Below, in pieces: positions 24,993 through 28,023 of a stretch of DNA of 32,150 bases. Source of the stretch: Candidatus Methylomirabilota bacterium (GTDB lineage Bacteria; Methylomirabilota; Methylomirabilia; Rokubacteriales; CSP1-6); NCBI GenBank assembly GCA_035260325.1, contig DATFVL010000107.1:1-32150 (forward strand), given 5' to 3'. The notes under the pieces were generated by a model. It did no database searches and was not told where the DNA came from. It saw only the letters and a program-made list of their open reading frames with translations. Position 1 is the first letter of the stretch, and each line of letters starts with the position of its first letter. A program made the translations under genes and the position numbers.

Positions 24993-26107
24993 CCAAGCTG
25001 CGTGTCGGCGTCGTTTTCGGAGGCCGCTCCGGCGAGCACGAGGTCTCCCTGGCCTCCGGGGCGTCGGTGATCGCGGCGCTCGAGCAGCGCGGCCACGCCG
25101 TCGTGCCGATCGGCATCGCGCGGGACGGCCGCTGGGTCGTCGGCGGCGAGCCGTTGCGCGCGCTGGCCGCCGAGGCGCGTGTGGCCCTGCCCGCGGACGA
25201 CGCCGCGGGCTCCGTGAAGAAGGCGCTCGCCGACCGCGCCGAGGCCGTCGAGAGCGGCACGCAGAGCCTGGCGCGCACCGAGCCGCCCGGCGGCCTGCCG
25301 GCCGAGGTCCGCCGCCTCGACGTCGTCGTCATCATGCTCCACGGTCCGTACGGCGAGGACGGCACGATCCAGGGCCTCTTCGAGCTGGCCGACGTCCCGT
25401 ACGTCGGCGCCGGCGTTATGGCGTCGGCGATCGGCATGGACAAGGCGATGATGAAGACCGTCTTCCAGGCCCACGGGCTGCCGGTCGTCGAGCACCTCGT
25501 CGTCGCCCGGCGCGAGTGGCGGGAGGACCCGGCCCGCGTCGCGCGGCGGGTCGCCGAGACGCTCGGCTTCCCCTGCTTCGTCAAGCCCTCGAACCTCGGC
25601 TCCTCCGTGGGCATCAGCAAGGTGCGCGACGCGGGCGCGCTGGCGCCGGCGATGGACGAGGCCGCGCGGCACGACCGCAAGATCCTCGTCGAGCGCGCCG
25701 TGCGCGGGCGCGAGATCGAGGTCAGCGTCCTCGGCAACGACGCGCCGGTCGCGTCGCTCCCCGGCGAGATCACCTACGCGAGCGAGTTTTACGACTACGC
25801 GACCAAGTACGCCGAGGGGCAGGCGCGTCTGACGGTGCCGGCGCCGATCGCGCCCGAGGTCACGCGCAAGATCCAGGAGCTGGCCCTCGCCGCCTACCGC
25901 GCCGTGGACTGCGCGGGGATGGCCCGCGTCGACTTCTTCCTCGAGGGCGACCGGGTGCTCGTCAACGAGATCAACACGATCCCCGGCTTCACGGCCACCA
26001 GCGGCTACGCGCGCATGTGGGAGGCGTCGGGGCTCGCCTACCCGGACCTGTTGGAGCGCTTGATCCAGCTCGCCCTCGAGCGCCACAAGGATAAGGGTGC
26101 CGGCTGA
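24989..26107 (+). CDS. ddl: D-alanine--D-alanine ligase (apparent CTG start)
   Basis: This cytoplasmic ATP-grasp enzyme joins two D-alanines for peptidoglycan. The N-terminal VGVVFGGRSGEHEVSLASG, with Glu17 needed for D-Ala binding, is encoded upstream of the first GTG at 25067, so that GTG cannot be the true start. No ATG, GTG or TTG exists in frame before the upstream stop at 24911, leaving CTG 24989 as the best start (372 residues, DdlA-like length). Other motifs: HGPYGEDGTIQG (118-129), Lys199 and GSSVGIS (204-210) of the ATP loop, ARVDFF (312-317) and NEINTIPGFT (326-335) for Mg, and Ser338 in TSGY. It overlaps murG by 11 bp. Function is firm; start is inferred. Confidence 0.9.
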   Translation: MTKLRVGVVFGGRSGEHEVSLASGASVIAALEQRGHAVVPIGIARDGRWVVGGEPLRALAAEARVALPADDAAGSVKKALADRAEAVESGTQSLARTEPPGGLPAEVRRLDVVVIMLHGPYGEDGTIQGLFELADVPYVGAGVMASAIGMDKAMMKTVFQAHGLPVVEHLVVARREWREDPARVARRVAETLGFPCFVKPSNLGSSVGISKVRDAGALAPAMDEAARHDRKILVERAVRGREIEVSVLGNDAPVASLPGEITYASEFYDYATKYAEGQARLTVPAPIAPEVTRKIQELALAAYRAVDCAGMARVDFFLEGDRVLVNEINTIPGFTATSGYARMWEASGLAYPDLLERLIQLALERHKDKGAG

Positions 26108-27206
26108 GATCGTCATCGCGGGCGGCGGCACGGGCGGCCACACGAGCCCGGGTCTCGCCGTCGCCGCGCTCCTCGCCGCGCGTGGCGTCGGCTACGCGTG
26201 GATCGGCTCGCGCGGCGGCATCGAGGCGAGCCGCGCGCCCGAGGCCGGCATCCCCTACCACGCGATCCCGACGGGCAAGCTTCGGCGCGCCATCACGTGG
26301 CGAAACGTCGTGGACCTCTTCGTCAACGTCCCGGCGGGCGCGGCGGAGGCCTTCCGGGCGCTCGGGCGCCTTCGTCCGCGAGTCGTGTTCGCGACCGGCG
26401 GATACGTCGCCGTGCCGGTCATGCTCGCGGCGGCCGCGCGCCGCATCCCGATCGTGCTGCACGAGCAGACGTCGGTTCCCGGGCTCGCCAACCGCCTGGG
26501 CGCCCGGCTCGCCCGCCGGGTGGCCGTGACCTTCGACGAGAGCACCCACCACTTTCCCGCCCGCAAGGTCGTCGTGACCGGCAACCCGCTCAGGCCCGAG
26601 CTGCGCGGCGGCTCGCCCGCGCGCGCGGCCCGGCGGTTCGGGCTCGACGCGGCGGTCCCTCTCGTTTACGTGACGGGGGGCGCGCAGGGCGCCCAGCGCA
26701 TCAACCGGGCGGTCGGGGCGAGCCTCGCGCAGCTGCTCGAGCACGCACAGATCATCCACCAGTGCGGCGACAACCCGACGACGGGCGATCGGGCGTGGCT
26801 CGAGACGCGTCGCGCGGAGCTCCCGCCGGCCCTCGCGCGGCGCTACGCGGTCGCGCCGTACGTCGGCGCCGAGCTCGCCGACGTCTACGCGGCCGCGGTG
26901 CTCGTCGTCTCCCGCGCCGGGGCCGGCACGGTGAACGAGTGCTGCCAGCTCGGCCTTCCCGCGCTCTACATCCCGTTGCCGGGGGCGCGCGGCGACGAGC
27001 AGGCGGCGAACGCCCGACTCGTCGAGCGTACCGGGGGCGCCGCCGTGCTTCCGCAGTCGGATCTCACGCCCGAACGGCTCGTCGCCGAGGTCACGGCGCT
27101 GCTCGCCGACCCGCGGCGCCTCAAGGAGATGGGCGAGCGCGCCCGCCGAATCGCCGTCCCCGACGCCACCGAGCGCCTCGTCGCGCTCCTCACCGAGCAC
27201 TCGTGA
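26097..27206 (+). CDS. murG: MurG-type UDP-GlcNAc:lipid I GlcNAc transferase
   Basis: The GTG at 26097 overlaps ddl by 11 bp, with AAGG just upstream. The 369 residues form a GT-B glycosyltransferase (family 28). IVIAGGGTGGHTSPGLAVA (5-23) is the lipid-side glycine loop. TGGYVAVPVMLAA and LHEQTSVPGLANRL (HEQ motif) are typical of MurG. The C-terminal domain has TGGAQGAQRIN and the UDP-GlcNAc site SRAGAGTVNECCQLGLPALYIPLPGA with DEQ and NA after it. MurG acts at the inner face of the membrane, making lipid II. Its usual mur/fts neighbours are absent; only ddl is linked here, so it may be an extra copy. Cys-Cys in the donor region is slightly unusual. Confidence 0.9.
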   Translation: MPAEIVIAGGGTGGHTSPGLAVAALLAARGVGYAWIGSRGGIEASRAPEAGIPYHAIPTGKLRRAITWRNVVDLFVNVPAGAAEAFRALGRLRPRVVFATGGYVAVPVMLAAAARRIPIVLHEQTSVPGLANRLGARLARRVAVTFDESTHHFPARKVVVTGNPLRPELRGGSPARAARRFGLDAAVPLVYVTGGAQGAQRINRAVGASLAQLLEHAQIIHQCGDNPTTGDRAWLETRRAELPPALARRYAVAPYVGAELADVYAAAVLVVSRAGAGTVNECCQLGLPALYIPLPGARGDEQAANARLVERTGGAAVLPQSDLTPERLVAEVTALLADPRRLKEMGERARRIAVPDATERLVALLTEHS

Positions 27207-27208
27207 GG

Positions 27209-27333
27209 GTTCCCAGGCCGGGTGCCTTGGTCGACCACGCTAGCGACCAGATCGTCGGCGGTCGTGTCCTGTGGCGCTGCGCCCGAGCGACGCCCAGAAG
27301 CTACGGGTCTCCCAAGGCACCCGGCCTGGGAAC
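27209..27333. repeat. 125-bp element bounded by a perfect 22-bp inverted repeat
   Basis: The left arm 27209-27230 (begins GTTCCCAGGC, ends GCCTTGG) is the exact reverse complement of the right arm 27312-27333 (begins CCAAGGCACC, ends TGGGAAC). They enclose an 81-bp spacer with smaller pairings such as GGTCG/CGACC. The repeat starts 2 bp after the murG stop and lies between convergent genes. No transposase and no clear target-site duplication are seen. Options are a MITE-like non-autonomous element, a large bidirectional RNA hairpin or terminator, or a structured RNA. The repeat itself is certain; its role is not. Confidence 0.9.
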
Positions 27334-27369: not shown

Positions 27370-28023
27370 TCAGCGGGCGGGCGCGCGGCCGCGGAGATCC
27401 CAGCGCAGCGGGCAGCGCTCGCAGCGCGGGACCGTGCGGCAGTGCGACTTCCCCACCGCAACGAGGAGCGCGTGATACTCGTTGAACAGCGCGGGATCGG
27501 ACGGCAGATGCGCCTCGAGAAAGGCGCGCGCGGCCTCGTAGCCCGCGCCGCGAGGCAGGAGCCGGTGGCGCGCCAGCACGCGCCGGGCGTAGGCGTCGGC
27601 GACGAACACGGGTCGGCGCGCCGCGTAGAGAAGGATCGCGTCGGCCGTCTCGGGCCCGAGCCCTGGCACCGCCAGGAGGTCGCGACGGAGCGGGCCGAGC
27701 GGCTCATGGCGGAGCCGGGCGAACCCGCCCCGGTCGAGCAGCCAGCGCGTCAGGGCGAGGAGCCGCCGGGCCTTCACGCGAGGCGTGCCCGCCGGGCGGA
27801 TCACGCGCGCGAGCTTGGCCGCCGAGAGCCCCGCCAGGCGCCGCGCCGTCAGGCGCCCGCGCGCGCGAAGGGCGGCGACGGCGCGCGCCGCGTTGGTCCA
27901 CGCCGTGTGCTGGGTGAGAACCGCGCCCGCCGCGATCTCGTAGGCCGTGCGGCCGGGCCACCAGGCCTGCGGCCCGAATCGCCACGTGAGCGCCAGGTAG
28001 AGGCGGAGCAGGCGCGCCTTCAC
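27370..28023 (-). CDS. HhH-GPD DNA glycosylase, MagIII-like (endonuclease III superfamily)
   Basis: I choose GTG 28023 (217 residues, close to MagIII length); a longer frame to 28143 would overlap the divergent neighbour. The helix-hairpin-helix is VPGLGPETADAILLYA (119-134). The catalytic aspartate is Asp143 in VFVADAYARRVL. The lysine that gives Nth its lyase activity is replaced by Glu125, as in mono-functional 3-methyladenine glycosylases. Near the C-terminus Cys195, Cys201 and Cys204 (C-x5-C-x2-C) recall the endonuclease III iron-sulfur loop, but the fourth cysteine is absent, so the cluster is doubtful. It likely removes alkylated bases in base-excision repair. It converges on murG across the inverted-repeat element. 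Confidence 0.85.
   Translation of the reverse strand: MKARLLRLYLALTWRFGPQAWWPGRTAYEIAAGAVLTQHTAWTNAARAVAALRARGRLTARRLAGLSAAKLARVIRPAGTPRVKARRLLALTRWLLDRGGFARLRHEPLGPLRRDLLAVPGLGPETADAILLYAARRPVFVADAYARRVLARHRLLPRGAGYEAARAFLEAHLPSDPALFNEYHALLVAVGKSHCRTVPRCERCPLRWDLRGRAPAR

Follow-up and report, generated by a model that had tools for sequence, protein, structure and literature searches.

A dispersed family of palindromic elements with a fixed core and freely varying arms in one Rokubacterial family

Introduction

In a contig of a Candidatus Methylomirabilota bacterium (assembly GCA_035260325.1, contig DATFVL010000107.1), a murG-like gene is directly followed by a 125-bp element with perfectly complementary ends, which raises the question of what kind of element this is and why it is found at this position. 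A preliminary description of the window, i.e., the whole stretch of 32,150 nucleotides analysed here, considered a MITE, a double-sided terminator and a structured RNA.

The palindrome downstream of murG

The element is bounded by an exact inverted repeat, in which positions 27209-27230 are the reverse complement of positions 27312-27333. The arms of 22 bp enclose an 81-bp spacer (27231-27311), and no pairing is gained by extending them outward. When spacers of up to 200 are allowed, 22 is also the longest perfect arm of the window, whereas 60 dinucleotide shuffles of the window gave a mean longest arm of 13.1 and a maximum of 16. Folding of either strand of the element is far better than that of shuffled sequences, and no gene was recognised within positions 27209-27333. 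The murG-like open reading frame (ORF), whose product contains both glycosyltransferase-28 domains, stops 2 bp ahead of the left arm, and the convergent neighbour encodes an HhH-GPD repair protein. A T-run beside the stem is absent from the window copy, as read directly from its letters. The preliminary description was therefore right about the perfect 22-bp terminal inverted repeats round an 81-bp spacer, arms far beyond chance, the location 2 bp past the murG stop between convergent genes and the lack of a gene. Chance or a plain hairpin is ruled out for this copy by the shuffles (16 vs. 22) and by the arm pairing found across the family described below. The locus comprises the following features:

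26097-27206, plus strand: murG-like gene, upstream, with GT28 domains
27209-27333, minus strand (putative folding and sense strand): whole element, an exact repeat; matched by model R2 (see below) at 27211-27331, minus, with 100.8 bits
27209-27230, no strand assigned: outer stem P1, first arm; sequence free, complementarity kept
27231-27244, no strand assigned: fixed core end 1, plus-strand reading TCGACCACGCTAGC; contributes one side of the tandem G.A step (27231-27232) and of the fixed helix P2 (GACC)
27245-27288, no strand assigned: variable middle, hairpin tip, with little conserved pairing
27289-27311, no strand assigned: fixed core end 2, plus-strand reading GACGCCCAGAAGCTACGGGTCTC; contributes the opposite side of P2 (GGTC) and of the G.A step (27310-27311)
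27312-27333, no strand assigned: outer stem P1, second arm; sequence free, complementarity kept
27370-28023, minus strand: HhH-GPD base-excision repair gene, convergent, identified by a domain match

A dispersed family with a conserved core

The palindrome in the window is one member of a dispersed family of Rokubacterial hairpin elements, and the signature of this family is the core of the spacer rather than the arms. A DNA search of the source assembly returned further matches, mostly to parts of the spacer. Ten of them were inspected, and most consist of GACCACGCTAGC, around 45 variable bases and AGAAGCTACGGGTCTC, flanked by pairing arms, while two (L014 and L016) contain the second core end only. 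The conserved core GACCACGCTAGC...AGAAGCTACGGGTCTC thus spans about 79 bp between arms whose sequence changes from copy to copy while their complementarity stays.

A first model, R1, had 17 matches at E < 1e-6 in the source genome (21 at E up to 10) and matches in 19 of 60 relatives, every one of which belongs to the source genome's own family. Model R2 was built on the sense strand from the 44 sequences of alignment A3, 34 of which were included on account of arms of 19 or more. The search of the genome and its relatives that the preliminary description had proposed yielded 18 R2 matches in the source genome and matches in 37 of the 57 genomes of the family; these genomes cover 14 of 24 genera, and the per-genome counts sum to 475. 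None of 38 genomes of the same phylum outside the family had an R2 match. A single copy with nothing but the stem conserved had been named in the preliminary description as the outcome that would favour a terminator; the opposite was found, namely many copies in which the core is conserved rather than the sequence of the stem.

In a collection of 84,980 species, which may omit records of the source genome itself, the core pattern was present in 31 stretches, 29 from Candidatus Rokuibacteriota and one each from Marinobacter and Prevotella. The latter two, in which 4 and 3 of 14 arm positions pair, are taken as chance matches. A viral carrier of the element was considered and rejected, as the core pattern had no match in a viral contig collection. 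A larger autonomous form with a gene between the core ends was likewise dropped as a candidate; none was apparent in the motif listings of seven genomes, which were read by eye.

The copy set used below was obtained from 98 matches by removing two duplicates from overlapping loci and one opposite-strand match of the same copy, which leaves 95 copies, 93 of which have recognisable core ends. The core is 77-79 long in 73 of these 93. As copies were sought via the core, decayed copies are under-counted. The same arm plan also surrounds another core type, TCGACCACGAGCCTGG...GGGAACGGGTCTC with slight variation, which was seen at L167 4943-5055, at L168 4651-4765 and 4792-4906 (genome G013) and at L220 (genome G016); the two copies in L168 are arranged in tandem.

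Fold, covariation and strand

The fold of the family consists of a long outer stem of free sequence, a tandem G.A step, a fixed helix GACC(CG)/(CG)GGTC, a conserved asymmetric loop and a variable tip. The pairing of the arms could be assessed in the stretches from the 84,980-species collection, which had been found without reference to the arms and some of which are copies also fetched from genomes searched separately. At least 11 of 14 Watson-Crick pairs are present in 27 of the 28 evaluable Rokubacterial stretches, the remaining one having 7; the 29th is cut by a contig end. Across 96 distinct sequences, 85.1% of the cells are paired (shuffles: 63.1%), and both sides are changed in 360 cells (shuffles: 97), a value reached in 0 of 500 shuffles, with 32-62 such cells in slid registers. 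In alignment A3, 95.4% are paired, a figure inflated by the arm-based choice of 34 of its 44 sequences. Among the arm pairs of orthologous copies, 266 are changed on both sides and still paired, 229 show one-sided changes, 74 are changed on both sides without pairing being kept in both, and 709 are identical. Weak signals of inner structure were detected in the variable middle; a UAGC/GCUA helix beside P2 was tried and rejected, since covariation does not back it.

The core ends have the sequence GAGACC...GGTCGA on the strand opposite to the written core pattern, which in the window is the minus strand. GA thus faces GA between the outer stem and the GACC/GGTC helix, forming a tandem G.A step in 82 of 93 copies; Watson-Crick pairs occupy this position in 7 copies and a single change is found in 4. 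The position is also paired in L057 and L058, which come from other genera. Read on the other strand, the same step would be UC opposite UC. The mismatches in the stem, counted on the minus-type strand, are asymmetric as well, with 85 G.U vs. 35 A.C and 49 G.G vs. 21 C.C. The excess of G.U persists when one copy per site cluster is counted (40 vs. 15, p 0.001) and per element (47 vs. 13). The order of these mismatches, G.U over A.C and G.G over C.C, follows mismatch stability. These data suggest that the folding strand is the minus strand in the window, although G/C skew could account for part of the asymmetry.

The tandem G.A step and the mismatch pattern taken together indicate that a folded single strand, either RNA or DNA, is the likely object of selection. 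The G.U asymmetry is weakened as proof of RNA by the parallel excess of G.G over C.C and by the fact that DNA could behave alike. The asymmetry is no weaker where the transcribed strand is the opposite one, an argument against a fold formed by the host mRNA. Of the three options in the preliminary description, the structured RNA therefore comes nearest: a fold kept by covariation is present, and its carrier may be RNA or single-stranded DNA.

Taking all data together, the family probably represents an ancient, non-autonomous type of palindromic element that is dispersed in the genomes of one Rokubacterial family, resembles the Rickettsia palindromic elements (RPE) and acts via a folded single strand. 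More tentatively, it might represent a new class of structured nucleic-acid element restricted to this family, such as a protein-bound RNA, a ribozyme or a single-stranded DNA recombination signal. This class would have a fixed asymmetric internal-loop core and a free-sequence stem, would be functional at about 20-40 sites per genome at most, even in coding sequence, and its core would be flipped periodically.

Genomic context and in-frame copies

Gene calls for the analysis of the context were made with a crude, purpose-written codon-usage finder. Among 95 copies, 27 lie between convergent genes, 25 between tandem genes running with the core strand, 18 between tandem genes running against it and 4 between divergent genes; 15 are located inside an ORF and 6 are unclear. 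A second count covered the window and L130-L209. Convergent pairs make up 23 of the 66 gene pairs that bear an element vs. 29 of 314 others, and divergent pairs make up 3 of 66 vs. 43 of 314. Most copies start within around 30 bp of a stop codon, just 3' of genes. In L025, L031 and L205, the complementary arms extend through stop codons, so that the stop of one gene is paired, across the stem, with a reverse-complemented stop.

The ORF-internal copies are open in frame. They are located between the ligase and primase-polymerase domains of LigD, in the metallo-beta-lactamase region of ComEC and within the pterin-binding domain of FolP. A ferrochelatase contains the element at its C-terminal end, and in a fused gene for branched-chain amino acid transport it separates two ATPases; a further protein with an in-frame copy, encoded at L135, has no Pfam match. 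In the fused transporter gene (L130 778-3387, genome G001), a single open frame covers the permease for branched-chain amino acids and both transporter ATPases; this may be a real fusion or result from a lost stop codon.

The enrichment between convergent genes, the scarcity between divergent ones and the proximity to stop codons are what would be expected of a bidirectional terminator or 3'-end stabiliser common to neighbouring, often convergent genes, in which a bound protein replaces the U-tract. The double-sided terminator of the preliminary description is supported to this extent, but it is unlikely to be the answer: copies reside in frame within ligD, comEC and folP, the stem in the window has no T-run, a core of about 79 bp is fixed, many genomes of the family lack the element, and the core is indifferent to the orientation of the gene (25 tandem-same, 18 tandem-opposite). 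An intrinsic terminator consists of a stem with a T-run outside of coding sequence, and neither the window copy nor the in-frame copies show this arrangement. Copies of a dispersed palindromic element working as a folded single strand would persist where harm is small, either just past stops or as in-frame loops and linkers.

Occupied, empty and inverted sites

Occupied and empty sites, which the preliminary description had suggested looking for, were found at folP and behind murG. The folP site was searched in 57 genomes and 30 loci were fetched. R2 matches the element in the insert at 9 of these 30 loci, three of the matches being weak (L212, L214, L224). Both strands of L223 give a match, the match in L239 lies solely outside the insert, and in several genera the folP linker is short and uninterrupted. 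At this site, G016 carries the other core type mentioned above, G013 and G060 contain shortened or rearranged remains, and the core is reversed in G011, the middle of which is by eye of the same subtype as in G000. In L219 (G064), the folP linker that bears the element in other genera holds a perfect hairpin instead, which is long, in frame and almost loopless and lacks the core. Behind murG, R2 matches are present in 3 of 20 loci (G000, G001, G013); among the 20 loci, L115-L119 were checked by model R2 alone. Several other loci have a short spacer in place of the element, including that of G004, which is copy-rich elsewhere. In G025, which is outside the 20 murG loci, a copy adjoins the orthologous gene. 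The first ~250 bp past the murG stop in L106 (G016), from a genus that lacks the element, contain a unit repeated at least three times in succession, in which a short plain hairpin is formed (GGGGGCC ATTTC GGGGCCCC, then ATAGAGATGG). No target-site duplication is readable, occupied and empty sites being too diverged for their junctions to be read.

Of 70 orthologous pairs, 54 agree in the orientation of the core and 16 are opposite, and the differences involve 9 of 25 orthologous sites. In the flipped pair L163/L144, the identity of the middles is 0.75 and thereby exceeds the 95th percentile for unrelated pairs (0.70), as would be expected of an inversion in place; the remaining flips could be independent insertions. 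Between orthologous copies, the identity is 0.65-0.67 in the middles (unrelated copies: 0.61), 0.65-0.68 in the arms (0.54) and 0.88-0.92 in the core ends (0.85), where the constraint is over-stated because the copies were found through the core. The copies look old, since their middles are nearly without site-specific similarity while the core ends keep theirs.

According to PMC8604942, template switching between short inverted repeats homogenises their arms and inverts their spacers, and does so in coding DNA as well; PMC8794818 reports that it creates and maintains hairpins. Both footprints are present in the family, as compensated arm changes (266 vs. 229 one-sided) and as flipped cores. 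These reported effects, together with the decayed or rearranged copies, would also fit a functionless relic of an old mobile element whose arms are kept by template switching alone. We regard such a relic as quite improbable: the core ends have kept high identity while the middles have drifted close to the level of unrelated copies, a contrast that is subject to the ascertainment bias mentioned above, and the mismatches are asymmetric between strands.

A model for the element

In the favoured reading of an old, non-autonomous element, the working form would be the folded single strand (in the window, the minus strand). The fixed core would be the putative recognition site of a protein or activity by which the element was once dispersed and which may use it to this day. 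Two processes would each contribute to keeping the arms near-perfect, namely selection on the fold and template switching of the polymerase between the inverted repeats, by which one arm is copied onto the other and the spacer is flipped. No mover or binding protein was found for the element, and Y1 transposases do not track it.

A family of trans-acting small RNA genes would account for the fixed core, the stable fold and a strand preference that is independent of the neighbouring gene, but arms abutting stop codons leave little room for a promoter and copies lie within coding genes, which makes this very unlikely. Least credible of all is an element of REP or MITE type whose inverted arms are acted on by a transposase that moves it. 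The palindromes are indeed dispersed over occupied and empty sites, but the arms are not conserved between copies and Y1 transposase is found in just 11 of 57 family genomes and is absent from G000, G001, G004, G025, G022 and G013. Mobilisation by a RAYT was rejected, as Y1 transposase (PF01797) is encoded in 6 of the 37 genomes with the element and in 5 of the 20 without it. What remains of the MITE option in the preliminary description is the dispersal and the alternation of occupied and empty sites; the conserved terminal inverted repeats of a MITE are lacking, as the arms are variable.

The orthologous sites with differing arms and flipped cores provide a natural record of how the symmetry of inverted repeats is kept up, by selection or by template switching, and the fixed core offers a handle for finding the factor that reads the element.

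Comparison with known systems

A search of Rfam 15 with part of the window and 13 loci gave no family at the gathering score; the few weak matches were to microRNA-precursor models, which fit the long hairpin, and to one model each of a toxic sRNA and a CRISPR repeat. Like structured RNA families in Rfam, the element combines a conserved fold supported by covariation with an invariant internal loop. No report of such an element in Rokubacteria was found in the open-licence papers searched.

REP/BIME sequences with their RAYT (Y1) transposases are dispersed extragenic palindromes. The Rokubacterial element is dispersed and palindromic as well, but it is larger, occurs about 20 times per genome, and Y1 transposase is missing from most carrier genomes. 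ERIC, RUP and Correia/NEMIS elements are dispersed and of ~100-200 bp, with transcripts predicted to form long stem-loops, and are listed in a table of PMC2229807 with terminal inverted repeats and target duplications. Size class, dispersal and the long stem-loop are shared with these elements; unlike them, the Rokubacterial arms do not form a common terminal repeat, and no target duplication is readable.

The closest analogue seems to be the RPE, which are described in PMC2229807 as dispersed elements of 105-146 bp with a long predicted stem-loop, located both in intergenic regions and in frame in conserved protein genes; a report of such palindromic elements in Wolbachia is cited there. The Rokubacterial element is similar in size, palindromic and dispersed, and is likewise found in intergenic regions and in frame in conserved enzyme genes. 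It differs in its host, the high-GC Rokubacteria, in its fixed core, in cores that are flipped between relatives and in its unconserved terminal arms, so that a terminal inverted repeat common to all copies, as in RPE, is lacking. The two are likened by description and not by sequence, and a likeness rather than membership is proposed. The family would thus add a case from an uncultured phylum that resembles the in-frame coding palindromes of Rickettsia, with the conserved and variable parts swapped: the core is fixed and the stem is free.
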